A stretch of 64,000 nt of DNA. Origin: Lineus longissimus (taxonomy: Eukaryota; Nemertea; Pilidiophora; Heteronemertea; Lineidae). The notes beneath the pieces were generated by a model, which was given only the letters and a program-made list of their open reading frames with translations, was not told the origin of the DNA and made no database searches. The translations under genes were made by a program, and so were the position numbers. This document shows positions 2,732 to 53,793 of this stretch, one piece after another (position 1 is the stretch's first letter; the number at the start of each line of letters is the position of its first letter). The stretch is from NCBI RefSeq assembly GCF_910592395.1, contig NC_088316.1, forward strand, positions 2,292,001 through 2,356,000, in the 5' to 3' direction.

Positions 2732-2842
2732 CCTTGTCATTGAGGTTACGGAACATTTTTGTCGATCCTTTATGTAGTGGTGGTGTATTCTTCAAGGTTT
2801 GTTCAACTTCGTACCGGGATAGCACTCGTCTTCTTCCACGAG
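2732..2842 (-). CDS. MICU2/MICU3-like gene, coding exon 3 (N-domain, before EF hand 1)
   Basis: 111 nt. The acceptor is TATTTGCAG|CTCG and the donor AAGG|GTAGGT; the exon enters with two bases of a split codon and leaves in phase 1. The translation has an Arg-rich start followed by LSRYEVEQTLKNTPPLHKGS and TKMFRNLNDKG. Human MICU3 has, from memory, a block with TPxxWKGSSKLFRNL at this point and MICU2 one ending STFFRDLGDKG, so the match is in the right order after exon 2. NTPPLHKGSTKMFRNL is closer to MICU3, and NDKG is closer to MICU2, as expected for a pre-duplication gene. The next block (ISYTEYLFLL in vertebrates) was not found in the 2.7 kb to the left, so the EF-hand exons should be outside the window. 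A tRNA-like SINE head ends about 10 bp inside the following intron. Confidence 0.9.
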
Positions 2843-3270
2843 CTGCAAATATAGCAACAAAAAGACATCAATATCGAAATATCAAAATGGTTCATAGTCC
2901 CTTTAAACGTTCTTACACACTGCCAATAAACAGCAAGAACAATATTGCACTTAAGACATTTAAGCATTGCGCAGAGGAGTGATTTTAGTTACTGTGACCT
3001 GTGATTTTAACTGCTGCGATGTGCAACAAAAAGATCTCTCCTCTGCAGGAAAAAACGGTATAAATCAGTGGGTTTGATGTTGATTGCAAATTGATGTAAA
3101 CAGGCAGACAGCGTTTCGTTATGACCAAAATATTAAAATCCATAACCACAATTTTTTCAACAGACAAATCAAGATTCACTTTATTGCCACACCCTGTAAG
3201 GCTAGTATATTCTCTGTGAAGGTCAGGACATCCCAAACCCCTGGGCAATGAACAATAATCTAAGCCAATA

Positions 3271-3446
3271 CGGTGGAACCTCCCTTAGCAGACACCTCTC
3301 TTATAAGTAGAACCTCCCTGTCAAAGACACTCGCTCTGGTCCCAAATTGGTTGTTTCCATTCAATTTGACCTCTTTAATCAGGACACCTCTCTATTAAGG
3401 CAGCATTTGTCAGTCCTGAGGGTGTCCTTAATAGAGAGGTACTGTA
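3271..3446 (+). mobile_element. Short TA-type MITE copy 2
   Basis: It begins CGGTGGAACCTCCCTTAGCA and ends with the inverse, AATAGAGAGGTACTGTA. The interior is nearly the same as copy 3 (ATTGGTTGTTTCCATTCAAT and GGACACCTCTCTATTAAGG). The terminal parts are imperfect inverted repeats. Confidence 0.75.
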
Positions 3447-4099
3447 TAACAAGGGTCCTCTCTTAAAAAGCTTGCCCTCATTACAACACTTAAGATTTAT
3501 AGCTGACTTTAGATAGAAATACTTCTATAATTCCTTTGACATATTTTTGCACGGACTGGATGTTTTTCTTTGACCAAAGTTGGCAAAGGGCAGTGCAAAT
3601 ATTGTAAGGTCAAAGGAAAGTGTCAAGCAATTGTCTAAAACGGTGAAATATCTCACCATAATTCCAATAAATCTGACAAGGAAAGTCAGAGGACATGCAA
3701 ATTTCTTTTCAGGTAAATAGCAAAATGTTGTGATAATATGATGAACAAAACATTCAGGCAAATGGGTTTCGTCAGGAATTAATCAAATCCTTGGTGGCGT
3801 TGATCCACTCCATCAATAGATGTCACCATTAATGCAAGTATCAATTCGTTTCTTGTACCCCCCCTCCTCAAGGGTAGTTAAGCTATCACCACTAATCTTT
3901 GCCGATGCTTGAGTAGTATTTATTTTTCCTTTAGTGAAAATTTGGCGAAGCTGGAAAGAATAAGGATGCTAATGTGTCGATGTCTTGTCGAACATACAGC
4001 CTTACCCAGTAAAATTAGTCCGGTTACTTTATATGATGGTGATAACTGATATATTGTTGATGGTGATGTCTTGACGAAAGAAAAAGTAGCATTGGTGAA

Positions 4100-5163
4100 A
4101 TGAAATGGCCAGGGCCATTGTGCTCACCTCATGTGGAGGAAAGATGGACAAAGAGCATGGTCTTGTGTCATGTAGTGTTAGGTTTGATGTAGGTCCAAGC
4201 AATTACAATTTCCCCAAAATGGCCAATTTACAGTACATTCGACCTCTGTGACCTTGAAAAGTAGGTCAAATCAAAGAAGACCCGGGTGACACATTGAATG
4301 GTTGTTAGAATTAGATGTACCTATGATATAAAATTGGTGCCAATCGGGCAAGTCATTACTAGGAATAATGGCATTTTGAAGAATTTAGGATTTGGCCCCC
4401 TCCCTGGAGGCCAAACGGCAAATCAGATCCCACCAAACTTCAGTACCTGAGATCACCTGACCAAGGGGTACATGTGTACTTAATTTGTGATCAATAGTCA
4501 TTGCAGTTAAGAAACGTGCCATAGCTACGGCCTGACGGCGAATTTACGCCATTTGACCTCTGTGACCTTGACAAGAAGGTCAAATTAAAAACCTGTGTGA
4601 CATATACTGTATGGTGGTTAGATGTACCCATGATATCAAATTGGTGGCAATCGGGCAAGAAGTTAAGGAATAATCACATTTTTAAGGTTTTTGGATTTTG
4701 CCCCCTGGTGGTCAAGTGGTGAATCATATTGGACCAAACTTTGGTCCCTGAGATCACCTGACTGAGGGGTAAATGTGTACCAAATTTGGTATCAATAGTC
4801 ATTGCAGTTTAGAAACGTGCCATCGTTACATCCTAACGGCTAATTTACACCATTTGACCTCTGTGACCTTGAAAAGGAGGTCAAATCAAAAACCCGGAGG
4901 ATATATGATGCACCTTTGCTAGAAGTACCTACCATATTTTTTTCAAAATTTCCCGACTACTATTAAGGGAGATATTGCATATTTTCACTTTTAACGTTTG
5001 TCCCCCTGGTGGCCAAACCATGAAACGAATCGGACCGAAACTTGGTCTCCCAGGTGTCATTACATAAGGGTACATGTGTACCAAGTTTCAACTCAATAGC
5101 TCTAACAGTTACGAAACGTGCCCTGCTAACGGACGACGGACGACGACGACGACGACGACGACG

Positions 5164-5222
<59 letters not shown>

Positions 5223-5275
5223 ACGACGGACGCCACGGTATGGGATAAGCTCACCTCTGCTAAGAGGTGAGCTAA
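4100..5275 (+). mobile_element. Repeat element with internal 0.3-kb tandem units and a GAC tail
   Basis: Near the left end is TGTGCTCACCTC, and the right end folds as AGCTCACCTCTGCTAAGAGG followed by TGAGCT. Between them a unit starting GACCTCTGTGACCTTGA recurs at 4241, 4555 and 4856 (314 and 301 bp apart). Each unit has a CCCCCTGGTGG-type block and an AGAAACGTGCC block. A GAC array precedes the terminal hairpin. It is non-coding; the open frames across it are translations of the trinucleotide array. Confidence 0.6.
5115..5236 (+). repeat. GAC trinucleotide array
   Basis: About 40 GAC units with a few GGAC interruptions. It sits inside the element ending at 5275. Read in other frames it gives poly-Asp, poly-Thr or poly-Arg. 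Confidence 0.95.
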
Positions 5276-6596
5276 AAAGGGTGATGCTTGAGCCTTAAGA
5301 TGTCGTTATAGGGTGATAAGGTGTCGTACCCTTGAGGAGGGGGGGGGGGGGTACAAGACACGAATTGATACTTGCATAAATGCTAGCAAGACTGAGTACA
5401 TTGAAATTTATGTCACCTTGATGTCACCAAGTGTGCAAGTTTATCCTGGATTGCACATCATATCTGGCATACTTATCAAATCGGTACCTTACAATTAGAA
5501 AGTAACTTTAGCATTATATGAACATTTCTACATGTTCTATCACACCTAGCTCTAACTACGAGTATTCAAGGTCAGCGACACTATTGCGAAACCAGACAAG
5601 GCAAGGGTTAAAGATGATGAAACAGTCCATGATACATATTCCACCATCTTCCCGTGAACTGCTGCATTTCCCCGCCTCATCTTCGACACTTCCACGAATA
5701 ATTACATATAGATTAAGTTATGATATAGATACGACGGGATTGCGGGCGGCCATGACGCACAGACATATCATGATACGGTCTGCCGTCAATCGCCCTTATG
5801 ACAAGATTAACAAACGTTTCGTCCGTGGTCATCTACGTCAATTCATGAGCAATCGTTCGTGATATCTTGCTTGGAATTCCCTCTGGTCACCAGCAGTTCC
5901 AGAACAGCCAAAATTTACCAAAGAATTTATTTCAAACTGTATGTTCTCCAATATGCAGCCCGCCTGAGCGCTGGCTGCAACCGGAAGGCCACCCCTTCAC
6001 CCAAAACTTTCGAGTGAAGTCCATATTATAGGTCAACTAGCAAGTCTTTTGAACCCTTGACAAACTTGCCCTGAGGTTTATTGACCCCTGAAACTAAAAC
6101 TACCAATATATTATTCACCATAAGCAAAATCGAAGTTCAACTTTGTCACTTACCAAAACAACAATAACACTACATCAATCCAAATAATTGAAAAATATAT
6201 CTTTTACTACAAAATGTTGTTTTTTTGGTAAAATTCATGGCACAAGGCCAAGGTAACATTATTTTTCTTTTGAGACGAGTAAAAGAGTGTAAAACAGTAT
6301 GATTAGCAAATGTGTGCGTATTTAACCAAGTTGGTTGTTAACCTAATGGGTCATGACCCCTTCATGATACCATCTACCGAAACTTCACGCCTTATTTAAA
6401 GCGTCCAGGCCCTGTACTATCAACAGGCCCACAAAACTATTTCTGCAGAATGCTAATGTCCCGAGTAATTTGATGTTGTCTGACCTAAGTAATTATAGCT
6501 TGCTAACATAATATGTAATTTTACACAAGGCCTAGCTACAGGCATGAGCTTGAATAGCTCTTTTGTCAGAACTTATCAGCACCGATCAGGTATGAG

Positions 6597-6680
6597 GGCT
6601 GTCAGAGTGGCCAGTGGTATAAACATTAGTGCCTGTCACCTCTGAAGTCCCGGTGTGACAGCGGATATAGTCCCCCTGGA
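6597..6680 (+). mobile_element. tRNA-like SINE head (decayed)
   Basis: CAGAGTGGCCAGTGG fits a Pol III A box (TGGCnnAGTGG). It is followed by CCTGTCACCTCTGAAGTCCC in the anticodon-arm position. The B box is degenerate. No further SINE body can be defined. Confidence 0.35.
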
Positions 6681-6749
6681 GTCATAGTCCGGTAGCATTG
6701 TATTTGACCAATTAAGCAGCATGATCTATTGTACCGCTAACCCTAACCA

Positions 6750-6972
6750 AAACATTTGGCAATGTGGGCTATTGTTACACGGACTATCAGCCCTAGGACT
6801 ACTATCCCTTGCACACCGGGTTCAATTCCTGGTCGCTCATGTGATAGAGGGCGACTCTCTTCAACAGCATTGGCTTCCTCTGGGTTATCCGGTTTCCTCC
6901 TACTTACACTACAATCACCCAGTATTGTTTATAGAGCTATTGCCCTTGTTGACGCTCAGCTCTCAACTCAAC
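6750..6972 (+). mobile_element. tRNA-derived SINE, family A, copy 1
   Basis: A B box GGTTCAATTCC lies at 6819-6829. The body contains GAGGGCGACTCTCTTCAACA, CCGGTTTCCTCCTACTTACA and the end CTCAGCTCTCAACTC. The same order of blocks is found at 6975 and, inverted, at 16265, which defines a family of about 220-230 bp. Confidence 0.7.
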
Positions 6973-6974
6973 CT

Positions 6975-7130
6975 ATGAGGTCTCGGGTTTGATCTGTTAC
7001 ACTCATGTGGTATAGAGTGCGACTCTCTTTAATCGCGATGTAGGCTTACTCCGGATCTCCGGTTTCCTTCTACTTCACATTACAAATTGCCAAATATTGT
7101 TTGTTGAGCTAGTAACAATGTCGAAGCGGA
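6975..7130 (+). mobile_element. tRNA-derived SINE, family A, copy 2 (partial)
   Basis: It directly follows copy 1 in the same direction. It has a degenerate B box GGTTTGATCTG at 6986-6996, then GAGTGCGACTCTCTTTAATC, CCGGTTTCCTTCTACTTCAC and AATATTGTTTGTTGAGCTAG. The tRNA-like head is shortened. Confidence 0.6.
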
Positions 7131-7334
7131 CTCATTTTTTTATCCAAAAGTGTATATGACCTAAATTCAGCTACACACCGACCTGACTGAACAGTCACTT
7201 GATTTTTGATGTTGGAGAAGCTTTTATAAGTTCCCATGGCGTGACCTGTCTGTGTCTTTGTAAAGGCTTGATCTTCCATTGATTTACCTTGAGAGTAGGC
7301 CTACTTGGATTTCAATGCTAAAGGAACTAGGTGA

Positions 7335-7365
7335 CACAGTGGCACAGTGGCACAGTGGCACTGCA
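7335..7365 (+). repeat. 10-bp repeat, three copies
   Basis: ACAGTGGC repeated in steps of 10 bp (GTGGCACA). Confidence 0.7.
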
Positions 7366-7574
7366 TTTATAATGAAGATGACACAGGGACGCATTCTTGA
7401 CGTATTGTCCAGAGGTATCTCTACGACTTTGGGTTGTTAACCCTCAGGCATTTTTCTCTCAAGTTCTGGCAGATACCAGCCTACGCTAGGTGTACTAGTG
7501 ACAATATTGGAGACTGCTCAACACAGGTCATTTCAACAGATCGAAGCACACACCATTTATGCCGAAGGACAGAG

Positions 7575-7718
7575 ATCAAAATGGCACAAAGATTCAAAAT
7601 GGCACAAAGATGCAAAATGGCACAAAGATTCAAAATTGCACAAAGATTCGAAATCGCGCAAAGACTCGAACTCGCACAATGATTCAAAATCGCACAAAGA
7701 TTCAATATTGCAGAAAGC
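7575..7718 (+). repeat. 18-bp minisatellite, about 7-8 copies
   Basis: The unit is GGCACAAAGATTCAAAAT with increasing divergence to the right. Because 18 is a multiple of 3 all frames stay open, giving repeats such as HKDSKW. There is no sign of a real protein around it. Confidence 0.85.
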
Positions 7719-8970
7719 TGAAGACGGACGTCATGACACAGGCTCAACCAGGTGAGCTGAAAATACCATAGGCACGAAAGACGAGATGAAAGTCAAGCCG
7801 ACTGATTGGACAACAATTTCCTCGATTAACCATATGTATATGTATACATTATTTTCAACAGCGACATAATCGTAAAAACTCCCACCCTGGACAGTGGTCT
7901 GTTATTAAATGTAAGCGAGACTAAGATGTGGTAATCAATCGTCAAATCGCACGGTTTAAGGACAGTGATTTGCAGCTCGAGTTAGTTAGAATGGGGTAAC
8001 GCTTTGCCTGCGTGGCATAAGGCCGGTCATTATGGTGTTTTCAAATTACTGAAACGGAATGAAGTACCATAACAGTGATGAAATGTTATGGTGCATGAGC
8101 GGTTGGAAGTCATTTGCTGCGGGCGGGTCAGGCTTTTTGTGGGAACTTTCATACCTATCCTTTGGTAACACTTAGATAATATTTTTCTGGCCAGAACAGG
8201 ATTAGATCGGTCATTTGTATAACTGTTTGGAACGTCCGAACAGCAAATTAAAACAGGCCGTCCGTGGTATCAGGAGCAAGACAGTCGTTGGGGTATGAAT
8301 ACAATCGGTCACCACATTACAGTTGTGTTTTTTGTCACAGACAGTCCACACAAGACTAGAGTATCGTATCACCCTTAGGAATTTACCTGCTTGGAAAAAT
8401 ATGTGACAGTGGACAGCAAAATATCAATGTCATAAAGAAACAACTTGGGAGTGTGATTAGGTGTCCCTGTAATGACTATCATTAGCTTTGGCCACAGTCT
8501 GAGTGAACAAAAACTAGGAGATTTATGATTAATCGCCAATAAAATAAGCTGATAGAAAACCAAATTTTTGGGTTTTTTTGATACGGCAAAAAACCATAAA
8601 ACGTTCATATGATAGGCAAAACAACACCTAAAAGATGCCAAAATGTACATGTCTGCGTTCTGTATATTCATGAGTATATTTCGCAACAGATAGTCTATCA
8701 GCAGCAATCCAAATGATGTGGGATCTCAAGGGATGACAGAATCAAATGTAAAACGTCGTTATAATCGCCGACGGATATCGATGTCGTTCCATATCACTTC
8801 TCCAGTAATAATTGTGATGGCGTTTGGTATATCATAGCTCTGACCTTAGGCGCCGCAAAAATGAGTTTCGTTTCTGATCTGGGGTTATCCGAAATCCTTT
8901 AAGCTTTATGTATTGCATGGTTATTACTAAAGGACAAACTGATGCAGAGTGAGTAGGCAGATGAGATTAG

Positions 8971-9340
8971 ACGGACCGAGTAGGCGGACCTAGTAGGCGG
9001 ACCTAGTAGGCAGACCGAGTAGGCGGACCGAGTAGGCGGACCGAGTTGGCGGACCGAGTAGGCGGACCGATTAGGCGGACCGAGTAGGCGGACCGAGTAG
9101 GCGGACCGAGTAGGCGGACCGAGTAGGCGGACCGAGTAGGCGGACCGAGTAGGCGGACCGAGTAGGCAGACCGAGTAGGCAGACCGAGTAGGCGGACCGA
9201 GTAGGTGGACCGAGCAGGCGGACCGAGTAGGCAGACCGAGTAGGCAGACCGAGTAGGCAGACCGAGTAGGCAGACCGAGTAGGCAGACCGAGTAGGCAGA
9301 CCGAGTAGGCAGACCGAGTAGGCAGACCGAGTAGGCAGAA
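8971..9340 (+). repeat. 13-bp minisatellite, about 28 copies
   Basis: The unit is GGCGGACCGAGTA. The left part is dominated by GGCGG and the right part by GGCAG units. The long minus-strand frame here is only the 39-bp period read as 13 residues (LLGPPTRSAYSVR). Confidence 0.95.
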
Positions 9341-11142
9341 GCAGAAATAAACTTGATGGGGCAAGAAACTATGAAATAAATCCAGTTCACGTCGGTGGAT
9401 ACCGCTCGTTTCAGGGTAAGAGTCGCCTGTTTATGACTTGATTATTGGCGGTTTAAATCACGAGGGGTCTATTTCATTGCTGGCTCATTCTCGCCGACTT
9501 ATGTTGTCTTCGTGGAATGGATCAAACGATTTACACAAATTACCGCATTTGGACGTCTGCCCGAAGTGGAGATGATGGTGCATCCGTACGCAAATATGGT
9601 TATGAGGGGAGAATGGTCTTTTTCGGGACACGGGGACAGACGAAAATACGGCAAGGATTATCGAGACAGACACTCATATTTTAGCGAGATTCAGAAGTGG
9701 CTAAAATTTTGCGTCAGGATTAGCCAAAATTGCATGTCGGGATTCGGGATGTACATGGCTTTTTTCAACGGAAGAAACCCTGTCACAAAAAAGTTTACAG
9801 TACTTAATTTCAAAACATTGAGCAGTACAAGACATAGCATATTCCTTGACACTGTGAAGACTTTGAAGTCAAGGTTTGAATAAATACGACAACACTTACT
9901 TTTTACTCGATTAAACGAGAATGTCTGTGAGGTTAAACTGAGACGCATTCTCACGACGAAGCCATATTTTGCCAGTTTGAGTTTTCTCATTCATAAAAAG
10001 AATGCCAAAATAAAAACTACTCACGAGGGACGCTTTGCCAAGTCTGAATGACAACACTGGAATAGCATTCCTTGTACAAGCGTGAATGAATAGTGCCAAT
10101 GTACAGTGACACCTATCAGTGACTTTTTGTAACTTAGTCTGGCCCACTTGGCACATGCCTATAGACTTCTTTTAAAATGATTTGCCCAAGGACACACATG
10201 CAGGGACTCTTCTCTTCCTCTATGAAATGAACTAGTCTGTTTTGTCTTGATCCCCAAGATGTCAGCACTGGTGCAGTGGAGTCCACCAAGAATGAATTTG
10301 AAGGATTTTTTCTTCATCGATGCATGCTTGTCACCCAAACGCAACAAATTCTGAAAGGTAAGATCGCAACTCTCTGTTACACTTTCTGCAAGGTATAGAT
10401 AGGTACAGAGCAAGCCACTGACCATGGTAGTGAAAGGGTTAAAGGGGAAATCAAATTCCAGGTTGTTTGAGAACCATCGAATGCCCGCAATATTATACTC
10501 CAAAATACAACGATTTGTAAAGGTCGCGTCACATGTTACCATTCTTATTTGCATGACATCAGAACACATCATCATGTGACAGCATTGCATTGTTTTCTCA
10601 TCAAGTGCAAACAGAATGCTATTTTAAGCCTTGTGACATTCTTGTGGTGGACTATATATTCATTGCCTGAATCTAGTTATTTGTGAATTACTATCAATTT
10701 AGTCTCTGCGGCAATTAGCAGTCCATGGTGAGGCGAAAATGCTCAAGGCACCGCACTGCATTAGTTCATGGTTGGAGCACACACAAAAACACACTTTGGC
10801 TGCCTTTTTAGGCACTGAGTATAAAATGTAAGGGTAAACACTTGCTAGTATGATAGAAAGAAATGGCATGCCATTTTGGCAAGTGGCCTAAATCACACTG
10901 GTGCACCTTTTCCTTCTAGAGAGAGATTCTGTCGCAGAGACATGCAATGATTATCGCATGTGACAAAAGTCTCTCATCTGAAGCAGGTAGTAGCAACAAG
11001 AAGCAGCCTTGGCAAGCATAGTTATCAGACCCACTGGACAATCAAGCTTTTTGTTCTCATCACTCTATGCTGGGCACATTACTCTCAGCTCAACTGGTTG
11101 TCAAATTACTGAAGAACATGGCGTGCAACTGCAGCACTAGGC

Positions 11143-11560
11143 CTTTCTACACGAGGACAGTTGGAACCGGCTTCGAGCCAGCTCAAGGCGGGTCAGGATA
11201 ATTTTTACCGTGTAGAACGAAATCAGAACCGTCTCCAAGTGACCTGACCCGAGGCGCGTTAGCACTGCAGTCTCGAGTCACTTGAGGCGGGTTGGAGCCA
11301 CTTCAAGACGCTTAATCTCTCGTGTAGAACCGATCTGGCCTTGAGTCACTTTGCGCACGGTACTAAAATCGAGTAGTGCGGTATATAGCAGTTCATGAAA
11401 ACACGCGCCACCATGCGACGGGTTAGTGGTTTAAGTGGCCTGAACTGACCTAGGGCCGGCGATTTGATCCGTCTCCGTGTAGACAGCGCAAAGCCAGTTA
11501 CAGGTGATCCGGCTTCAAGTGGCTCGAGGTGAGGAGGGCTAGAACCGTCCTCGTGTAAAA
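11143..11560. mobile_element. Inverted-repeat element with terminal TACACGAGGAC
   Basis: The left end TACACGAGGACAGTTGGAAC is mirrored at the right by GAACCGTCCTCGTGTA. The interior is made of degenerate copies, in both directions, of a unit containing CGTGTAGAACCGATCTGG and TCAAGTGGCTCGAGG. It is non-coding and about 415 bp long. I could not define a target duplication with certainty. Confidence 0.6.
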
Positions 11561-12029
11561 GCAACTATTATCATCCCCTTTAACAAGTCCAACATGCCGA
11601 CAGTGACCTGAAAAAACACTGCTGTCTGGATCCAAAGGTCAATGACCCAATGAGTAATTAATGGTTTCATTAATTGGTCTAACGAGCAAAAACTATCAAT
11701 ACGATTATTGTATCAAACAACTTTTCGAAAAGTTGCTGAGGAATCACACGTGATGGTAAATTGTTGTGGCTGACGTGGACACAAAAGGTTGACAGGTCAA
11801 CAACATACTTTTATGTCAACTGACTTTATCATCCTGTCCTTTTATTCAGTACATTTGGTCCACGTCAACATTCACTCTGTACTTGGAGGTGTCGATTTCA
11901 ACACCAGGTGACACTACTGCTGCTCATGTTAGCGCAGAGGTGGACGAAACTATCCTATAAGTAGGTTTTTGTGTCTGTAACACGATAAACTTTCCACCAT
12001 GACAAAGTTATTCGAACATCATTTGAACA

Positions 12030-12220
12030 CTCTCCAGGAAATATTCCTCCTAAAACGCGAGATGAGCATTTTTACATGCCACTGCAGTAAGGTCCCAACT
12101 GGGTTTATTGGCCCAGGACTCCGACTTTGGTCAGAGTCAATTGCAGGCCAGCTATGTTTCTCACCTTGTGGGGTCTTTAGCTTGCCCTGGTAAAAGCCAC
12201 AAGGTACAAGGAGCCCGGCC
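12030..12220 (+). repeat. Interspersed repeat family D, copy 1
   Basis: It shares with 13955-14120 the ordered blocks CTCCAGGAAATATTCCTCC, GAGATGAGCATTTTTAC, TTTATTGGCC and GTGGGGTCTTTAGCTTGCCC. The class is unknown. Confidence 0.55.
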
Positions 12221-12248
12221 AGGAGTCTGAGTTTTATGTTAATGCATA

Positions 12249-12471
12249 TGTGACCCGCTCTACCAAAACTAGGCGCTTGTCGCATCTGAACTTGACAGGT
12301 TGATACGGACTTGTTGTTCATTTCCCTATTGTAGACCTTTGGTGAAATGTAACCAAATCAGTTTGTAATAGATTTCACAAAAGGTCTACAATAGGAAAAT
12401 GAACAACAAGTCCGTATCAACCTGTCAAGTTCAGATGCGACAAGCGCCTAGTTTTGGTAGAGCGAGTCACA
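12249..12471. mobile_element. Hairpin MITE with TA target duplication
   Basis: Two arms of about 100 bp, for example TGTGACCCGCTCTACC at left and the inverse GGTAGAGCGAGTCACA at right, are inverted copies with three visible mismatches. A central loop of about 25 bp separates them. TA flanks it at 12247-12248 and 12472-12473. There is no coding capacity. Confidence 0.85.
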
Positions 12472-13954
12472 TATACCCCACTCAGCTACGGTACTCATTC
12501 ATGGCACAAAAATTGTTCAAACTTCAACCGATTTCGGAACTGACTCGCATCAAAGTCCCAAAAGAAGTATAACCTAGGTACAGAGTCCCTAAGTTTTAGT
12601 TGTCAAAGTCAATGAAAAAATATGCATTATCCATGATGAACAAATAGTCTGCCCAAGTACATGACCTTGCTACTGTTTGGGCAGCAGGCCTCCTAGATGT
12701 TTTCATGGATTAAATGCCTGCTGTATGTAATTACGAGACTTTTCCATTTGCACAGGGCAAAGGTTGATGTGACCTTTCCATTTGATGTTATTGATGTGTC
12801 GAGTGATGAGATGGTAGTTACGACAATGATGACAGCAGTATTAGCCACCAGAACAGGACTTTTCATTTGAGATTAAGAATGCAGAAGAGTTGGATTTTGT
12901 AAAAAAATATTTTAGACCAACAGTGAGCATAATCCCATAGTTTTTGCGTACATTTTGAGACAATGAATACCTTTCCAAACACCACAAATGCACTAAAAGT
13001 ATTCCAGACAGGCCTCTCAATTACATGATTCCTACACCGTATAATGGTGTAGGCTGTACAGGATGTCCCCCAATTTTTTTATTTATTTTTTTTAAAAATA
13101 AAATGACCCCCTGAAGCGTTTTTTGACCCCTAACATAACCAAATCTCATCCAAATGGCCTAATTTTATAGTTTTACCCTAAAATTATGATTTTTCAGGTG
13201 TATGTGGTGATATCAGTCACTAACTTTGATTTATGACGTCGCTATTCAGGCAAATTGGCGTGATGAAATGTCCCCAAATTAAGCTAAAAAGCAAAAAAAA
13301 ACATGTCCCCCAAAATAGGCTAAAAAAATACAGGGTGTTGAGGTCTCCACGTAATTGAAAGGCCTGCCAGATTCGAAATGTGGAAGTCGCAATAAAAATG
13401 TTTTAATGTTTGAGTACGAGTATGCCAGTGTAGTCGACTTCCTAAGGGTGGTGATCAGGAACATAATCTGAAATTCCCCTCAACATGACTCCTGTGTTTT
13501 CACTTATAGTCAGACAAACGGATTGTCTTACGGAGAATGTGTCTCATTTATCTGATTGTCAACCAAACTTACGGGATTTTGGGCGACCATGTTAGCTGGA
13601 ACAAGGGCTGTTGTAAAAACAGGAAGGGCATGATGATAAGTTTTCATCAAAACACCACTAACTGTTCCTAAAGTGGTGAAAACATCAGCCTACACACAGG
13701 AAAGGACTGGCCAGACTGGCCTTGGCACCGTATATATTCTACAAACCACATATTTTTTCCTAGCACACAATCAACAAACAGGATCAAGACAGTGCAAACA
13801 TCTTGTCCAAATTTTTCATGTTGGTGTCAGTCCCTTTCATGTGCCATGTCAATGACTTAAACCTTCACCCTGTAAGGTCTTCATTTTTTTCAAAACACAA
13901 GGTCATTCTTCTTCTTTTTCCTCAGTGTCTGCTCTGCACTTGGGGTTGTTGATC

Positions 13955-18555: not shown

Positions 18556-18704
18556 CACCTTGATATTTTTGAGCAAGATACTCACATCTCCTTTTAATAT
18601 ATTGAAACAAGCATAATGTCAAACCCCAAGTGTAAATGTCAGCTTAATAGGACATTTTGCTTACTTTATGTCAAGACCATTTCAAAAATAATGTTGGTTA
18701 TGCC

Positions 18705-43678: not shown

Positions 43679-44339
43679 TATTGCGAACATTTTTATAAGA
43701 ACACTCTTTTTTGTAAATGACATTAGAAAAAAAGTTTAAAGTTTGAGGTTCATAGTCTTATATTTACTCAGATATAGGTTATCATTCGACTTTACACTTT
43801 AACCCCGGTTTCGTCTACATTGAAACCTTTTGGTAGACCGTAGATGAGGTGCTCAATCAGCACTACAATCTGAATATTTCTGACCAGTATCCTTTTTTAA
43901 CACCTGGGTGGAGGAAGGCAAGATAGGTAAAGAGACTTGCCCAGAGTCTCACGCAGACTGTGAGGGTTAGACTAGGGACATCTTGACCACTAGAAGAGAG
44001 TCCAAACCGCTTCACCAAAGCAGCTCAAAAATAGTTTTACCCAAAAGCTCACAAAATGTTGAACTGGCCACTTTTTTATGCCGTGTTGATATTCTTTAGA
44101 ATATACTTTTATGCAAAAATCATTTCATGGGGCCTGACTCACTTTTCCCACAGACAGACCCTGTGAAAAACAGGGGTATGGTGCAAGGGTTACCACTGTG
44201 TGGTCAAACATTATGACACATAAACGGATTATCATCAAAACCGACCCAAACCCAGCTCATTGATTCACAAGGATTTCACTAAAGTGATATTGTACCTACA
44301 TTTGAAATATTCATTTTTAAAAATCCATTTTTGTTGGCT

Positions 44340-44455
44340 GATTCTAAGGCCTTCTTCCAGTGCCTTCAGAAATAGGTAACTGGGCAGGGAGTCGAACCCA
44401 CGACCTCTCGATCATGAGGCCGACTCTCTTTCACTGCACTACCGCTGCCTCATAG
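44340..44455 (-). mobile_element. tRNA-derived SINE, family B
   Basis: On the minus strand a box-A-like TAGTGCAGTGA (44431-44441) is followed 32 bp later by a perfect B box GGTTCGACTCC (44388-44398). The body then reads ACTGGAAGAAGGCCTTAGAA. The tRNA head is well kept but it lacks acceptor-stem pairing for a functional tRNA, so it is scored as a SINE. Confidence 0.6.
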
Positions 44456-46774
44456 AAACTTCCTGTTTTGGAAACATTGATTTCCCAATCATCCCTAATC
44501 AGTCTTTTGAAGGCAAAGTCAGAACCAGGTGGCTGGGATCAGATCACTTTAACCAGACGGAAGTGAAAACGTACTTCCTCATCTTCAAAGGAATTATACC
44601 ATTACCTCCCAGCACGTCAGGACTCGCTCCGCTCGCACCCAACCCTGAGCGTGGGAGGAAATTAACCAAATCAAAGCACCGGCAAACTTCACAAAAACTA
44701 ATCTGACTAATCACATTGATTGGTTATTGTAGCTTCCTGATTATAACGCTGCTTCTGAACCAATCTTGTTAGGAATCAGGCAATGCTAAGCGACCACAGG
44801 AGTCCACGGCGGGCATGTACGGACTCGTTGCAAAATACCCACTTAGGAGGTTTTTCCAGGCCAATCTTACCACATTACACAATGATAAGCAATATCACTA
44901 CAAAAGCACAAAAGTCCATAATTTCTGTTTGGGTCCTATGGCATTGTTATCAGCTTCTTAAACTTAATCAATAGATTCCTGAATATTCGTGTGCAGGCAA
45001 GTCTCAATTCTCTTTGAATTGCCTTGGTGCCTATTGTCCCAGCTGATTCTAAGGAATCTGTTAAGAACCAAGAGACTACCCACTGCCAAATATGGCACCT
45101 GAGTGATGATGACACTTTCTAAATTTACTGTATTATGAAATCTTGGGGATAAGGAAGAGGGGATGAGGAACGAACCACATGGTCAGTGGCTTTCTAGGAA
45201 TACAGACGGATGGCTAACCTGTTGAGGACACGTTCACAACCTGACCTTGCTATTCATTGTACTTTTTGACCGGTCTTTATGGAAGACATTGTCACAACCT
45301 GATTTTACTAAGAGATATTCTGACAGATCTTTGTGGAAATTTTGTTGTAAGTAAACCTCTCTTATTTATGTTGTAAGCCTTTATTGACTCATACATAGAT
45401 TGTTACACAATGTATTTCATCATAATCATCATTGGTCACTGACAATAGCAAAAGTAATCATTACTCTTCAATGAGGGACTTAATGACCAAAAGGTGGCAG
45501 TCTTAGTTAGCGGTTCAATACAATACACTTTACAGAACCCTTTGTGAATGTAATTGACATGGGCTGGAAAATAGATTGCGTTGTTACCAAAGTTCCTCGT
45601 TAGACTTTGAAACATTTTGTTTCAACAACATTTTTAGAGAATTTTTTGAAATACTTGAAACATGGACCAAGTTTACATTGATTAATCATCCTGTACAATC
45701 TCATAACAATGACATGTTATATTGGATATTTGATGAAGAAATTTGGTCAAATAAATGGGACATTATGATGTCAAATATTTGAGTCTGGACAACAGATAAC
45801 TTTGGCAATCATTCATTGGTTGGGAGAGGATGAAGGCACCCTATCTTTGACAGAAGAATGTTGCAAAAAAATTATTTTTGACTCTTTCATTCATACACAT
45901 TTTTTATCTTGAAATTTTTATATTTTTCCGACTTCTGTCACAAATTGTGTAACTTGCAACACGAGGCTGCAAGTATGAGGTGCCTTGATGAGTAATGACC
46001 CAAGGTGGAACTGCTGGCCTGGAAGACCCCATTAGCAACGTCAGATGGTCCATAATATTACCTCGCACCTGCGTCTTGCTGCTACTGCTGGCCTAGTCGG
46101 CAGAGCCTGACAAAAATCACATTACATCAGCTGCTAGAATCAAGGTACTGTTGCCTAATTCCAACAGAAATGCCTACTTCTAAAACTGCATGATGCGTTG
46201 GTCATCCCAGGAGCCAGTGAAAAAAATCGTTGATTATTGTGATTTGGACTGTCGCCGCAATTATAATCGCAAATTGCAGCGATTTAAATCTCTTGTTTGT
46301 GTGGTGCTTTACAGACTGGGTTAATGCCACAGAATAAAGACGTCATACTCGCCGACTACACCCCCGCGGAAAGGTAGAAATCAATCTCCACATATTTTCA
46401 AACCAATTACTTAAATGAAAACCGAAATTGATCTGGGTGGGTATAAAACAACTTGCCGATGACAGAGTTTCCGGAACGCAATCTGTGGCGATTGTCCGCC
46501 ATTAAATCATTATGGCTAATAGCCTACCCCTCCCTGGGGTAGAATTTCAGACCTAGAGGGGACGGTGGAAGGAAATGAGGCAATTTCCATTTGAATGCCT
46601 CCGCGACAAGGTTACCATTTAAGGTCAGTTTGGAAACATTGGTGAAAATTAGTCATAATTACTACATACTTTCTTCTTTTAAGGCCTAGGCTACCTTAAA
46701 AATTCTAAATTTGTATTCGAGTTTGAAAATTTCAAATTGCGTAAATACATATTTAATAAATACCAGTTTGCCGT

Positions 46775-46860
46775 TATGAAGATAAATACTGTGAATACCA
46801 AGTTTCAACAAATTTGTATCATTATAACTGCACTATGGCATTGTGTATAACTGCATTTCT
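46775..46860 (+). repeat. Interspersed repeat family E, copy 2
   Basis: AATACCAAGTTTCAACAAAT and ATAACTGCACTATGGCATTG; see 26395. Confidence 0.55.
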
Positions 46861-49800
46861 ATTATCCTGGGACACCAGTAAGTACGAATGTCATACCTTT
46901 TAAAGGAAATAAGTAAGCAAGTGAGGCAAGCCACGTTTGAGGTGCAAAGTACACTTTTTGCCTGGTGCAGTATTAACCCCTGAGGCATCTAATGGTGTAC
47001 AGTGTCACGTCAGTCCTACTATTGCCCGAAAAACACTTCTTCAGCCCACAACGTATTTTCAGTTTTGATAACCTAGCACAGCGTAAACAAGTGACTTTAG
47101 TCACTGCAACCTACAATGTACCAGTAGCCATGACAACAGGACAGTTGTGGTTGAAATGCAGCCGCTGATTGGTGGGTGCGCTGCGACTAAAATCACTAGT
47201 TTGCGAAGCGCTTTGTTATTTGAAATTATGTACTGGAAATGAAAAAACAACAAGTTTTGAATATCCACTTGGGTTTTTTTAATACGAATCACCCCAAACC
47301 TAGTACAGTTCATCTACAATTGAATAACAACATCATCTCAATTGCAAATGCCCTTGTCTTCTTGAAAATCATCTTTAAGTTTGCTATTTAACATTGTATC
47401 CAATCATAGATGGGGTGAAATCGGTTCGCCATGTAAGAAAAGAAATCCTAATTGATCTGAACTCAACAACTGTTTTCAATTGAAATAAATAATAAAGCAG
47501 CATTAAATAATGCTCTCTTTTCAAAGTCTCATACACGAATGTTCCCAGCACGGAGGTATTTCTCCATCACAGATTACTTTGCAAAAGTTTTTATTCACAG
47601 GAGTCCTGGGAATCTGGATGGTTGCTGATCATAGGTAAAGAGTGTCATTTTTCAGCAAAAAATGATGTGCTCTTTTGAAACAAATTCAGAGGCCTGCAAA
47701 TCTTCGATTCTCGCAGCACGCTTTCGCAATAGAATCAGTATGTCGCAAGACCTACGCCAAATTGTTTACGAAATATCCGCAACGAAAAAGCATGACAATG
47801 CCAGCATGAAGTTCGGCCTGCGGTAAAAAAAGATTTCAACGTGCCACATGAGCAAAATATCACTATATGGAACAGCATAGAATTGCTTGCTGGTGGGACA
47901 ATGCCTGGCGCGTGGCAGAGGGACCCCCGGGGCGCTATACAAGTTTGACCTCCCTAAGACATAAACGACTGTATGAAGAACGCAGTCAGTAATCGCCAAA
48001 CACTCCCTCGTGTGGGCGGGTTGAACCTTATTTACTCTTGAACCCCTCCGAGCGCATTTAATTTCACCACGATGACTCACGCAGAGCTGAAAACCCAGGG
48101 ACGCAGACTTAAAAGAAATTACGATTTTGGTTTAAATTGGAGTGTGCCCAAAATGACTGTTAATTAGAATAGGCTAATTATGGAAGTTGTTTGGTATAAG
48201 AGCGTGGTATTGTCCACCGATGAACAAATAGAGGTTAGCGCTGTAAGTGTTAGCATAACGGGGAGGTTGGGTGACCACATCAGTACTACAGTGCTAAAAT
48301 TGCATATTTCTTAGCCAGGATTATTCATACTTGATTCGTACGTGGATTTTTAAAATTCAATAATCAATTTGGAATTGTATCTTGCATATGATGTGAAATT
48401 ATTCTGACATTTGTGAGGATGCTCGATGAGAGATTATGTAAGTATAAGATGATATGACACCATACATAACATTTCTATACTTCAGTACTTGATGTATTGT
48501 ACGCGCCGGTCACCGATCCAAAGGTTGACCGCGCTCAACGTTGCTTAACTTCCACTCTGGGGCCAACACGCCAACCACTGGGCCATAAAGGAATTCCAAC
48601 ATCGCCGGCGGGTTAAGCCGTGCCATATACCTGGGGGTACTATACACTTGACACCTTCCACTTGCCCATCTCTCAGATTTCGGGGGAGGGAAATGTTTCC
48701 TTTTTCATCCCAGCATCATAACATGAACTTTTTTTTGGGGGGGGGGGGTTACTTAAGTGGAGACTCTGTTATGTTTGTTGTCATGTGCATACGGCATTGT
48801 CTTCCAGCACATTGATAATGATATTCCAAATTGCCATGTTGCCCACAATTTTTGCGCTTAGTTCCTAACTTGACTATTTGCACTTGACCATCACATATAG
48901 CCGCTGTCATAAAATAGCCTGACTATTCCTTCAGCATTGCACATGTGGCAAAGTTATGAATATGAATCGTGCACAAGTTTCTAATTTGACCATTTCCCAC
49001 ATTGACCACAACAAGCGGTCACACTGACCACAACAAATGGTCACTCCGATTCCAGTGAGTACTGATACTAGACCAGATGGCTTCGTGACAAAAGATGGGT
49101 CAGTTGACTGAATGCTTTGTATTAATGTTCAAATTGAAAATAGCGCTGCCAATAATAGAAATGGGTGGACAACAGAATTGACTCATGACCAACTGTTCAT
49201 CTGTGCTCTGAGTGGTGTCCTTGGACCCTTCTCCTGTTTGCTAAATGGTAATCTTATTTCGGGCTAATTTTTCCCCTACCTTCAGGGATAAGAACTTGGG
49301 TCAAACTGACCAACAGAAATCGTTCAGGCAAACAATGTCAAGCATTCAAACCCTTTTTGTGTGTGTCCTTTTTAAAAATATCAATATCAACATGCATGTT
49401 CATTTTGTATGAATTGAATTTATCAGCAGGCTAGCTAAGAACAAAGCGGCTTGAACCTACAACCACCTGTTTATGATTCTGACTGTACACACCACTATGA
49501 CGATGACATCACACCCTTCAGTTCAAAAGATATTAGGTCACACTCTTTTAAAACTAAGACCAGGAAACTTTCAGCGGCAATCGATTTGATGATTTTCAGT
49601 TCTTGCAATTTCGACCGCGTACCTCGAATTTGCAGTGATGGAATTGAGAAGATGGATGAACAGCATGAGGCTATGACATCTTTCAAAAGTTTTTGTCTGC
49701 CCTGGAGCTCTGCTTGTAGATTAACCCCAGGGGTTAGAGGTCAACCAACTGACCATTATAAAGTTCTGGTCAACTACTTTATATTTGCAGAGCAGTTTGA

Positions 49801-50644
49801 TACATGGCTTAAACTGGTTTGGACTGGGGGCAAACTTCTGTTGGCTAAAGAGGCAATAGGTCAAATCACGACAACAAGAAAATACACAATATGAGTCTAG
49901 TGCAGAATGTATTTATTGCACCAGCAAGTGCGTAAAGACAATGAAAGAGACAATCTACAGGTGTTTACTACAGTATTTGACCAAAGGTAAAATTTGTCAA
50001 ATGGTAGGTCACTCGGGAACTAAGAACAGGATATTACCAAGACAGACCACTCAACTGAGCGGGGGGGGGGGGGGGGGAGGGGATGGGGGCTCTTTAGGTA
50101 TTTGCTGGTTATGAAGACTGAAAGCGCAAATATTGACAACAGCATATGATCAAAGTGATGCCGATGGCCACATGATATTAAAGTGCCCTGCCATCTAAAC
50201 CTCCAACCATCCTTCAGGCTTGACTGTCGGGGGCAGATACAGGAGACAGGAAAAGCGGGTGGGGTGGGGGTTCGCTCACTCACTCCGACACTGAACTTCA
50301 TCTTCATGTTTACTTGAAAAGATTTTTCATGATTTGAATGGGGGAGGGGGGAGTGCGTCTCTTGGATCCACGCCTGACAGTCTGTCAGTCTTGAGCATAT
50401 TTCAACATGACAATTGACATGCGAGTGACACTGACAGCGCATGAACGAATTGCAAAAGTGACTACTGTACGTGTTGTAAAGCACACATTAGAACAGGTAT
50501 ACCCACCCAATACTTTATTCATTACGTGTATACCATACCATGTACAAATGTGCAGTATACACTATGTTACAATGTAGAGTGTACATTATGTACAGGGGCT
50601 AGGCCTGAATGCATGTTGGAAATATGTCAAAAGTTCAGGCCTAC

Positions 50645-50851
50645 CTTGGCTTCGACAACCGCTAAAGACAGGGGTGTTTTCTCGAAAATGTTAGCAACCA
50701 GCCAATAACCAGCAGCACCCGTCGTCGCAGCAGATATCACAGATAGTATTGACGGCCGCAGTTTGGCATTTTGGCGTAAGAATAAACGCCTGCTGAGCAA
50801 TAAAGATCTGTAAGCGGATCGTCTCAAACTCTGAACGAATGTGGCCGCCAT
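50645..50851 (-). CDS. MICU2/MICU3-like gene, coding exon 1 (mitochondrial targeting and membrane segment)
   Basis: First coding exon of a mitochondrial calcium uptake regulator; MICU proteins sit in the intermembrane space and gate the calcium uniporter. The exon gives 69 residues. It starts MAATFVQSLRRSAYRS, is rich in Arg and Leu, has no acidic residue before Glu57, and has a hydrophobic stretch at about residues 35-56. This is what a cleaved or anchored mitochondrial presequence looks like. I chose the ATG at 50851 because its context (AAC before, GG after) is strong; two in-frame ATGs at 50872 and 50881 would add 10 poorer residues. The donor reads AAG|GTAGGC, phase 0, which joins in frame to exon 2 at 29326. 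The N-terminus alone is not diagnostic. The assignment rests on the phase match, the downstream exons and the mitochondrial character. A skipped small exon between 1 and 2 is possible. Confidence 0.75.
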
Positions 50852-50854
50852 GTT
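50844..50854 (-). promoter_or_regulatory. YY1-like site on the MICU start codon
   Basis: The minus strand reads AACATGGCGGC, an exact match to the AAnATGGCGGC YY1 motif. This motif often covers the start codon of housekeeping and mitochondrial genes. It is both a strong initiation context and a possible core promoter element. Confidence 0.5.
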
Positions 50855-50865
50855 TACATCCGCAC

Positions 50866-50877
50866 CGCGCATGCGCA
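50866..50877. promoter_or_regulatory. NRF-1-like palindrome upstream of MICU exon 1
   Basis: CGCGCATGCGCA fits the NRF-1 consensus YGCGCAYGCGCR at every position and lies 15 bp upstream of the chosen MICU ATG. NRF-1 is a main activator of nuclear genes for mitochondrial proteins, so the site agrees with the gene's function. No binding data are available here. Confidence 0.55.
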
Positions 50878-50899
50878 GCACAACCCAATTAGATTAGTC

Positions 50900-50914
50900 T
50901 CCCACAATGCAAAT
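50900..50914 (+). promoter_or_regulatory. ZNF143-like site overlapping an octamer
   Basis: TCCCACAATGCA resembles the ZNF143/Staf core (TTCCCAnAATGCA), and ATGCAAAT at 50907-50914 is a perfect octamer. It lies about 50-60 bp upstream of the MICU ATG, next to the NRF-1-like site, as in TATA-less promoters with dispersed starts. Confidence 0.4.
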
Positions 50915-53474
50915 CAGCTGATTTAGCAGAAAGGTTAGTCGGCTGGCTGCGAATGTGAGCAGTTAGTTCTGAACTCGACGCAGTGCTAAGCGGTTGGATA
51001 ATTCTATGGATTATTACCCAAGTTACATTATGACATTCCATCTAATGGATATATATTGACAACCTCAGGAATATCACTAATAGGGCTTCAAAAATAAAAG
51101 GTAAACCTTTAGATTTTTTCTTTTTGTTAATAAATCTTTATCTCTTCTTGAATATAATAGTTGTGGAGTTGGTTCCGAGTACAAATCTTGAAGCGACATT
51201 TGGGGGATTAAACGCATGCACTTTCATAAAACGCGGTTATAAGTGTCATTGAACGATATAAAATATGTCAGGGACAGGGTCAATGTCCACCACGCCAAAT
51301 TAGTTCTTTGTCTCACTTTTACAATCAAATCAACATTGTCCTTCTGATAAGCAATGAAATTGAATTGAACAATACTGATTTAAATGATTTTGATCCCGCA
51401 AAGTGGCCAATTTGATAAAGAGCCGGGAGTACACACTTTTAAACACATTTCGTAGGAAATATGTTTGATTCGGGTGAGAATCTTTAATATTTCATGTGTT
51501 ATTAACTGTTTGACTTTCTTGGTTTAACATTTCCGTCCTCGCTTCACACGTCATTATTTTAATGAATGAACACCAAATCAATATATTGAAACTAAAAGTT
51601 GAAATAAGCACAGTACGCTGTCTTATTTATTGATCAAAGTTTGAGTGAACGACAAAGGAATGACTGTTCAAATAAAGATTTAAAGAAAAACTGTTCACAA
51701 CGTCTGGTATCTTAAGTACAACGAAATTAACCCAAATTCCACTAATTTTCCAATAACGAAAGTCGATTAGTACTGAGTAGGTTATTGAGTTTTGAGGGAA
51801 TGAAACTGAGACAACAAGTCACACGCATAGTAGTTATTAAGACCAGTATATTAATTTTTTTTTCATTTGAGTGCCCGACAAACCGGCATTGTGTACTTTC
51901 TTGCGCAATAGTCGCTTTTGGAAAGTTTGAGTCAAACGTTGTGATAAATACGTATTAAGAATCGCGATGTCTGATAATTTCATCATGCATGGCAATTGCT
52001 CATAAATTTGCCAGGGGTGCGTTATTTCATTACTTCTATTTTTACGCGCGCGTATAGTTGGTCCAATCACCCGCGTTGTCAATCTTGACACTAGAGGCGC
52101 TGATTTCGTAAATTTCGGCACTTGGCGAGTTTGGCGGATTGTGCGTCTTAGCACGGTGGTGATTGGTTGTAACTAAATGTGCGTCATGCGTCAGAGCTTG
52201 TTCTGATTGATTGATTGGTTGTCTTGTTTACGCGCGTCATGCGTCGAAAACGTTATTTGTGATTTTGGGTAGTAATTCTAACCGTGCGTCTGTACGTAAA
52301 AGCGATGCACGCATGTCGATTCGGCCCGATTTCCAACGCACGTGCCTTGTATCAGTTATAAACTGTCATCAGGAAACAGCCCTTATTGATGGTGGCCATG
52401 CACTCCGCGCATTGCCTCAAATGGGGAATGACACCCTCCGTGAATGATTTAGGAGGGTATATGGTGGCCAAGATGAGAAGTATGAAGTTTCCCCGACCTT
52501 GTACTTCGTCTCTTCCTTTTGTTCCGCACGGAAGTCTAGACAAGTATTCTCATCTAATGAGGTCATTAATTACCATCATTAATTAATGGCTGATTCGTCA
52601 TATGCGGTTACTATACTGGTGTCAAACGGCACAGCACTTTTTCTCTCCATGGTGTCATTAGAGAAAAAATCTGACATGGACTAATTTGGGTTAAATAGGG
52701 TTACATTGTTGCGGTACTGATAGTGTGACTGCGTGCTGCTGCCTTGGGTGGTTGGGCTTGCACTTTTCAGGATAAGGACCTGTCTTCGTTTACTAAAACT
52801 CTGTATCGCGAATGGTGCTCTATACTAAAATCATAAGGCACCGACGGGTTCCCATAAGGCACAAGCATATCCGACGCCATAAGGAAATGACCAGACTGAC
52901 CAACCAGAGAATTCCTGCATGCTAATTAGTGCCGCGCGTGAATATTTATTAGAGACTTTGCCACTATGTCATGCATATAACCTCCTTAATAGAACGGACT
53001 GATATAGACAAAGCATGCCGTGCGCTTTATCCTTAGTGGCCGTACTTTCCGCTCACGCATAAAAAACAAAAGGTAAATCCGACTTAATTACGGATCACTC
53101 CTATTATTTATCAATCTTACCCCATTGGGTCGGCAAGCTTTGAAATTTCATTTATCAATCATGTTACGCAATTGACAATGTGTGATATATACCTTAACTA
53201 ATCCATTGAAATTCCATTTTATATTTAGAGAATCCAAGAGCGAAATTGTCGTCTGCTATTGATCGATTGGAGCATAGCCTAGCGGCGTAACTGGACTCTA
53301 CATTTCTGAAACGCGTGAATTGGGACTGCGTTTGGTGCGCTATGAAAAGAAGCGATTCGTACTACAGAGATACTTACTTCATTTTAACACACTCTGAACT
53401 GGAAAGTCGGTGAAAATAATGATTATCATCAACGTTCTGCGACATTTTGTGCAAGCCCCTGGACGGTTAAAGTC
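50915..53474. other. Shared divergent upstream region between MICU and FGF
   Basis: 2.6 kb between the two head-to-head genes. It is mostly AT-rich, with a CpG-richer core at about 52.04-52.36 kb. Apart from the sites listed separately I see no coding exon. A minus-strand frame at 51837-52154 (105 codons) resembles no known family. This region should hold the FGF promoter, its 5' UTR and enhancers. Confidence 0.6.
52063..52245. promoter_or_regulatory. Candidate FGF-side promoter core with three CCAAT boxes and a duplicated module
   Basis: CCAAT at 52063-52067 and inverted CCAAT (ATTGG) at 52162-52166 and 52214-52218. Each ATTGG is followed 19-20 bp later by GCGTCATGCGTC (52181-52192 and 52234-52245), so a module of about 53 bp is repeated. 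The surroundings are CpG-rich compared with the flanks. Paired CCAAT boxes suggest NF-Y. Which gene it serves is inferred from position only. Confidence 0.35.
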
Positions 53475-53478
53475 ATGA
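53419..53478 (+). other. Upstream ORF overlapping the FGF start codon
   Basis: A 19-codon reading frame begins at ATG 53419 and stops at TGA 53476-53478. The stop overlaps the FGF ATG (53475) as ATGA. It starts MIIINVLRHF. If the transcript starts upstream, ribosomes would end exactly on the FGF start, an arrangement linked to termination-reinitiation control. The frame exists in the sequence; that it is transcribed and translated is inference. Confidence 0.4.
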
Positions 53479-53793
53479 ATGGAGTGTCTCTGTCATCGGG
53501 CAGTCCAGTCGCCTCTCCTGGCTTTACAACCGCACTCCCCATCATTTCTCAACCAAACCAAGGATTACATTTTAGTGAACATATACCAAACATAGCTAGG
53601 ACTATTCAAGTAAAGGCACCGACCATGGGAAGAAGGGAACGCAAATTAAGGAATTACAAGCGGTTACTACGACGGGCGCGAAGAAATCGTGCCAGTGAAC
53701 CGTGCAGGATGTACGCGGGTGTTGGGTCGTTTCTTAGGATCCATACAAATGGAACAGTAGACGGCGAATTCTCAAAAAACCCAGGCGAATTAA
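53475..53793 (+). CDS. Fibroblast growth factor, first coding exon (FGF9/16/20-like by position)
   Basis: FGFs are secreted or nuclear beta-trefoil ligands of receptor tyrosine kinases. The exon gives 106 residues plus one base and ends at TTAA|GTAAGT (phase 1). Residues 79-97 read MYAGVGSFLRIHTNGTVDG, the first beta-hairpins of the FGF core (FGF2: FFLRIHPDGRVDG; FGF9: FHLEIFPNGTIQG, from memory). The exon stops where FGF genes carry their first, phase-1 intron. An Asn-Gly-Thr sequon at 92-94 corresponds to the one in FGF9 and FGF16. There is no N-terminal signal peptide, as in FGF9/16/20 and FGF1/2. Residues 52-73 are very basic (GRRERKLRNYKRLLRR onward). The Cys usual after the Leu-Tyr or Met-Tyr is Ala. 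An in-frame TAA at 53385 lies upstream and 53475 is the next in-frame ATG; ATG at 53625 has a better context and could be an alternative start. Exons 2 and 3 were not found up to 64000. Confidence 0.85.

Follow-up and report, generated by a model that had tools for sequence, protein, structure and literature searches.

A head-to-head MICU2/3-FGF gene pair in the nemertean Lineus longissimus and its likeness to vertebrate MICU-FGF neighbourhoods

The window analysed here is a 64,000-bp stretch of chromosome 9 (C9:2292001-2356000) of Lineus longissimus, a nemertean and as such a spiralian protostome. Window positions 2732-53793 hold the first three exons of a single MICU2/3-type gene on the minus strand, in the order 3, 2, 1, and exon 1 of a fibroblast growth factor (FGF) gene on the plus strand, and both end points coincide exactly with exon ends. 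The two start codons stand head to head, 2,624 bp apart, and the gap between them (50852..53474, 2,623 bp), the upstream region common to both genes, has an observed/expected CpG ratio (CpG o/e) of 1.13. The first-pass annotation of the window had described this arrangement, with starts 2.6 kb apart; the exons and splice phases found confirm it, and the rest of the MICU gene, EF-hands included, and FGF exons 2-3 were recovered from the whole genome. Exons were called from translation, splice sites and homology. The genome searched comprised 391,118,348 bases in 30 contigs, with 20,542,500 bases for chromosome 9 (C9) and 21,663,950 for chromosome 6 (C6), and yielded no COX1; a passage of the genome publication gives 391 Mb, 32 scaffolds and 19 chromosomes, with 20.55 Mb for chromosome 9 and 21.66 Mb for chromosome 6 (PMC8593623). 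The neighbourhood examined spanned C9:2182001-2446000 (264 kb), where inspection by eye outside the window covered open frames of at least 130 residues.

Coding exon 1 of the MICU2/3 gene (50645..50851, minus strand) starts with the ATG at 50851, comprises 69 codons and ends in phase 0 (AAG/gtaggc); its translation is identical to residues 1-69 of the L. longissimus calcium uptake protein 3-like. Intron 1 (29327..50644, minus strand, 21.3 kb) separates it from exon 2 (29191..29326, minus strand; ag/GAT ... G/gtaggg, phase 1), translated as ...ASVEAEGNAYMTPQDFLESVTEEMPR. Intron 2 (2843..29190, minus strand, 26.3 kb), which carries several tandem-repeat arrays, is followed by exon 3 (2732..2842, minus strand; cag/CT ... 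G/gtaggt, phase 1), translated as ARGRRRVLSRYEVEQTLKNTPPLHKGSTKMFRNLNDKG and matched in PDB by MICU3 (6agi). These two introns are the largest found in the gene and the closest to FGF. The exon phases 0, 1 and 1 are mutually consistent, and exons 1-5 spliced together yield a single open frame, whose translation agrees in every letter with the beginning of the NCBI Lineus protein 'calcium uptake protein 3-like isoform X12'. Isoform X12, of which about a dozen residues stayed unplaced, was mapped to C9:2342851-2265675, a span of 77 kb, so that further MICU exons lie beyond the window down to C9:2265675.

A search of the whole genome with human MICU3 gave 9 matches, seven of which were collinear exons on the minus strand of C9 and two of which were weak and lay elsewhere (E 0.3 and 0.6); only one MICU2/3-type gene was found in the 391-Mb genome. 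The spliced MICU translation scored 363.6 bits with the MICU3 chain in PDB (E 1.1e-107), 267.7 with MICU2 and 148.8 with MICU1, and is thus nearer to MICU3 and MICU2 than to MICU1, in line with its NCBI name. Among NCBI proteins the Lineus entry was 88 % identical over the whole query, a value below complete identity because some exons were missing from the query splice, and the next species was another nemertean, Tubulanus polymorphus (64 %). The spliced translation contains two EF-hands, DADGNQRVDKRE and DADGDGHLSHEE, both of which keep the acidic calcium ligands of the loop when judged by the EF-hand ligand rule. Seven protein clusters among the listed matches, with isoform names up to X13, correspond to the Lineus MICU gene at C9:2265675-2342851, and in the two isoforms compared alternative stretches flank the first EF-hand on both sides.

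Exon 1 of the FGF gene (53475..53793, plus strand) is translated as FLRIHTNGTVDG, comprising a basic N-terminus and the first trefoil strands, and ends in phase 1 (TTA A/gtaagt). Intron 1, with the donor gtaagt, occupies 53794..64000 (plus strand) within the window and ends at C9:2357754. Exons 2 (C9:2357755-2357864, plus strand) and 3 (C9:2366401-2367957, plus strand) were located by a genome search with PF00167 and lie 1.8 and 10.4 kb, respectively, beyond the end of the window. The spliced protein has 661 residues, the first 230 of which match PF00167 with E 1.6e-29 and 102.9 bits (cut-off 24); Pfam searches with single MICU or FGF exons taken alone gave no match. In exon 3 the trefoil core is followed by a Lys/Arg- and Ser/Thr-rich tail of approximately 430 residues. 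The Lineus gene has three coding exons, with introns in phases 1 and 0, which is the layout of vertebrate FGF9/16/20 genes and, being common to other FGF subfamilies, does not discriminate in favour of FGF9/16/20. Members of the FGF9/16/20 subfamily are secreted without a cleaved signal peptide and activate FGF receptors. The Lineus translation shows no visible hydrophobic N-terminus, and its product would be a secreted signal acting via FGF receptors.

The first-pass annotation had taken this gene for the FGF9/16/20 orthologue. Exon 1 taken alone gave no ground for this, but the addition of exons 2-3 brought the gene to that subfamily, with moderate tree support and no alternative rejected. 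Scores were obtained with 22 human FGF sequences. Exon 2 was close to both FGF7 (21.9 bits) and FGF9 (21.3 bits), and exon 3 matched FGF20 (39.3), FGF9 (36.9) and FGF16 (34.4) ahead of FGF1 (28.1). The joined core ranked FGF9 (84.1), FGF20 (79.3) and FGF16 (78.3) above FGF3 (64.2) and FGF1 (63.2). In PDB (best 60 of 120 matches) FGF9 with 85.3 bits and FGF20 with 79.3 preceded a consensus-designed FGF (76.0) and the best FGF1 chain (68.9). A tree with all 22 human FGFs placed the Lineus protein as sister to FGF9/16/20 with support 75/83, and the placement was retained when fast-evolving groups were removed stepwise (82/80, 84/78 and 87/86). The four trees were built from nested subsets of the same rows, human FGFs plus Lineus, and hence are not independent of each other. 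Exon 1 gave 4 candidates and no match in the protein database. A 239-residue FGF query identified one lemur FGF among 1713 candidates, the long relatives being outside the length limits of the search, which is why the tree holds no spiralian FGFs.

Genome-wide, a single further FGF was detected, on C6, and its exon scored best with FGF18. According to a passage in a study of three lophophorates, each of them has one FGF9/16/20 and one FGF8/17/18 gene (PMC8180254), and the two Lineus genes, FGF9/16/20-like on C9 and FGF18-like on C6, agree with this pattern. Elsewhere FGF9/16/20 members are reported for some protostomes, and the two Lottia FGFs are described as not clearly determinable to subfamily (PMC3420111). 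Taken with the core scores and the trees, the C9 gene probably belongs to FGF9/16/20.

The arrangement was compared with the vertebrate one, for which EFHA1 and EFHA2 are the older names of MICU2 and MICU3. The human MICU2-FGF9 and MICU3-FGF20 pairs are oriented head to head, with gaps of about 25 and 67 kb, vertebrate gaps being tens of kilobases wide. The MICU gene lies upstream of FGF in the EFHA1(MICU2)-FGF9 and EFHA2(MICU3)-FGF20 blocks as it does in Lineus. In tetrapods, EFHA and ZDHHC genes are reported upstream of FGF9 and of FGF20, and in vertebrates FGF9, FGF16 and FGF20 are followed downstream by gene-deserted DNA (PMC3636272); EFHA2 was among the genes sequenced in a 1.25-Mb chicken region holding FGF20, according to a passage of PMC3464622. 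The Lineus block differs in comprising a single MICU2/3 gene and a single FGF9/16/20-type gene instead of duplicates, in the 2.6-kb gap, in a Sprouty gene in place of ZDHHC beyond MICU and in the tail of the FGF protein.

Since the pair occurs outside vertebrates, it should predate the vertebrate duplications, and the earlier proposal of such an age is supported by the head-to-head MICU2/3-FGF genes of a nemertean. Moreover, because a nemertean protostome and tetrapods share the arrangement, the pair most likely existed already in the protostome-deuterostome ancestor, before that split. The explanation that we consider likely is that an ancestral bilaterian microsynteny has been retained, in which a MICU2/3 gene and an FGF9/16/20-type gene stood head to head, like MICU2-FGF9 and MICU3-FGF20. 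The chance of an FGF start falling within 2.6 kb of the single MICU2/3 gene was estimated at approximately 3e-5 to 8e-5 under uniform placement with 2 to 6 FGFs, before orientation was counted.

Several observations weigh against this explanation. Scored alone against the 22 human FGFs, exon 1 reached 15.8 bits with FGF12 and 15.5 with FGF2 but 5.6 with FGF9, and in PDB the best 60 of its 115 matches comprised designed trefoils, FGF1, FGF2 and FGF12/FHF1 only. An FGF9/16/20 identity is accordingly not supported by exon 1 alone, which favours FGF12, FGF2 and FGF1. The support of 75/83 to 87/86, with bootstrap values of 75-87 %, was below the strict mark of 95/80 in all four trees, the Lineus branch is long (1.72), which makes the placement of such a row unsure, and the Lineus row stood beside human FGFs exclusively. 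In approximately unbiased (AU) tests on the 22-FGF tree none of the seven alternative groupings was rejected (p 0.13-0.42). On the MICU side, the tree of 12 rows (9 selected from 120 listed proteins, plus 3 human) paired vertebrate MICU2 and MICU3 with support 53/84 and was too weakly resolved to show co-orthology. The invertebrate side of the comparison is one genome, that of L. longissimus; MICU introns 1 and 2 have background CpG and are not marked as special; and ZDHHC, the third partner in vertebrates, had no match in C9:2182001-2446000.

The behaviour of exon 1 would suit independent juxtaposition in nemerteans and vertebrates, with an FGF of another subfamily, e.g. FGF1/2-like, for which the AU p was 0.23. 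It is disfavoured by the whole core, which ranks FGF9, FGF20 and FGF16 first by 14-20 bits over the next human FGF, by the same placement in the four nested trees and by the low chance of adjacency, and we regard it as highly improbable.

As to ZDHHC, 26 DHHC matches were found in the genome, two of them on C9 outside the block, at 2.97 and 15.35 Mb. The comparison with human proteins covered three stretches, corresponding to 4 of the 26 matches: the exon at 15.35 Mb, 13 Mb from the block, had 73 % identity with human ZDHHC20 across 37 residues, and the matches at 2.97 Mb and on C6 were 52 and 57 % identical. A ZDHHC2/15/20-type gene on the same chromosome as the MICU-FGF pair is, judged by these 4 matches, possible but unproven. 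On C6 the second FGF (nearest FGF18) and a DHHC gene lie approximately 115 kb apart (C6:19353029-19353187 and C6:19237647-19238015), a proximity that recalls the ZDHHC neighbours of vertebrate FGF9/20.

If the microsynteny is ancestral, the pair would have been present in the protostome-deuterostome ancestor, and its linkage may have been kept since the FGF gene, the developmentally regulated partner, draws on surrounding or upstream regulatory DNA which MICU cannot leave. MICU, whose product acts as calcium gatekeeper for the mitochondrial uniporter, would be a bystander. A comparable situation is known from genomic regulatory blocks and ancient microsyntenic pairs, in which a developmental regulator remains linked across phyla with a large-introned gene unrelated to it, as here; the likeness is one of gene order, the linkage being kept in two lineages, the nemertean and the tetrapods (PMC3636272). 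Ancient microsyntenic pairs across metazoans were reportedly described by Irimia in 2012.

The CpG content was calculated with tandem repeats masked. It was high in the gap (CpG o/e 1.13), the FGF gene (0.89) and the next 12 kb (0.99), and low in MICU intron 1 (0.54), intron 2 (0.59) and the 3' half of the MICU gene (0.63), the outer flanks being at 0.56-0.65. Ten of the 66 bins of 4 kb, those covering 2342-2382 kb, were at 0.75-1.10, and three of the remaining 56 exceeded 0.8 (2218, 2250 and 2290 kb), the 2290-kb bin (0.83) lying within MICU intron 3. The gap, the FGF gene and the 12 kb downstream thus make up a CpG-rich block of approximately 37 kb at C9:2342-2380 kb (window 50852-64000 and beyond). 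As a rule, CpG depletion in invertebrates is a consequence of methylation of active gene bodies in the germline. The simplest reading of the block would be an unmethylated domain of approximately 37 kb centred on FGF and extending from the MICU promoter on, which would suit the juxtaposition of a developmental with a constitutive gene and speaks against joint control via one promoter. The first-pass annotation had suggested FGF enhancers within the MICU introns; the CpG pattern neither shows nor excludes them.

The same pattern bears on two other accounts of the linkage. The first assumes an old but passive association, kept by inertia in slowly rearranging genomes such as those of the nemertean and tetrapods and involving no common regulation. 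It is in keeping with the lack of a demonstrated conserved enhancer and with the end of the CpG-rich block at the MICU start, by which MICU and FGF look separately regulated. On the other hand, a head-to-head order preserved in two lineages that split at the base of Bilateria, with ZDHHC absent from the 264 kb, seems to exceed what inertia would be expected to leave, in a comparison that is qualitative. Passive linkage is possible, with considerable doubt. In the second account, a bidirectional promoter within the 2.6-kb gap and not distant enhancers would hold the genes together, as the distance of 2,624 bp between start codons and the CpG o/e of the gap could suggest. It conflicts with the sharply different CpG content of the FGF gene and MICU intron 1. 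It would also fail in vertebrates, where the gaps are tens of kilobases, since a common core promoter cannot explain the vertebrate pairs; such a promoter is improbable. Retention of the ancestral pair under the regulatory needs of FGF remains the account preferred here.

A Sprouty gene was identified at C9:2251601-2252335 (minus strand), 13 kb beyond the MICU 3' end, its start 93 kb from that of FGF. Its 245-residue frame contains the full domain (PF05210, E 5.3e-30), and the motif NEYVDTP near its beginning resembles the tyrosine motif of vertebrate Sprouty proteins. A CpG o/e of 0.86 was obtained for the surrounding 2.7 kb. The genome search gave three places with a Sprouty domain, on C9, on C3 (presumably a Spred gene) and a divergent one on C8. 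Such closeness of Sprouty and FGF by chance was estimated at approximately 0.002-0.006 under uniform placement with 2 Sprouty genes and 2 to 6 FGFs, for a coincidence noticed post hoc.

Sprouty is a feedback inhibitor of FGF signalling, and in vertebrates SPRY4 and FGF1 are neighbours. Sprouty may share an ancestral neighbourhood with MICU-FGF in Lineus. In vertebrates Spry1, Spata5, Nudt6 and Fgf2 are neighbours, according to a passage of PMC6070626, beyond which nothing on Sprouty-FGF linkage was found in the literature. Sprouty thus lies close to an FGF in that block as in Lineus, where the FGF is nearer to FGF9/16/20 and MICU stands in between. The vicinity of Spry1 and Fgf2 also counts in favour of the independent juxtaposition of an FGF1/2-like gene weighed above. 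A bolder proposal is that one neighbourhood in the bilaterian ancestor held Sprouty, MICU2/3 and the ancestral FGF9/16/20, that duplication and loss in vertebrates split it into MICU-FGF9/20 and Sprouty-FGF1/2 blocks, and that the nemertean has the undivided state; this must be called doubtful. If true, the FGF signal and its feedback inhibitor would have been physically linked in the ancestor, and even short of that the locus raises the possibility that the two were once neighbours.

Old linkages of a developmental gene with a bystander are known as a kind, and the Lineus pair and its Sprouty neighbour appear to be undescribed within the searchable literature. No description of an invertebrate MICU-FGF pair was found in openly licensed full texts, where names in slash form (FGF9/16/20) are unsearchable; the main text of a 2026 study of regulatory conservation in echinoderms mentions neither FGF nor MICU (PMC13317027). 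FGFs are a fast-evolving family that sequence trees often resolve poorly, as with the two Lottia FGFs (PMC3420111), and if the pair is ancestral, the linkage would be an independent marker of FGF orthology. It would then also be testable whether FGF control elements have held a mitochondrial gene beside FGF for half a billion years.

Farther out than Sprouty, exons with a class I tRNA-synthetase domain (PF00133, valyl type by eye) were found, and three open frames at C9:2209956-2215167 had no Pfam match. Downstream of FGF to 2446 kb, frames of at least 130 residues comprised, by eye, a Ty3/gypsy-like element (2379938-2385721), repeats and unrecognised frames, in a survey that would miss genes with short exons; in vertebrates, too, the DNA downstream of FGF9/16/20 is noted as gene-deserted (PMC3636272). 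The CpG-rich block ends approximately where this element starts. The window yielded no Rfam match and no tRNA gene.

Several repeats were noted inside the MICU introns. Intron 2 contains a 13-bp tandem array in 28 copies (8968-9336), an 85-bp array in 5.7 copies (22006-22489) and two minisatellite arrays that share a 15-bp unit, are oppositely oriented and lie approximately 630 bp apart (17577-17751 and 18382-18555); these two are possibly the ends of a mobile element. In intron 1 a 29-bp unit is repeated in tandem approximately 34 times in two adjoining rows (37629-38624), and an open frame at 39003-39224 (plus strand) looks by eye like the end of a non-LTR (long terminal repeat) reverse transcriptase.

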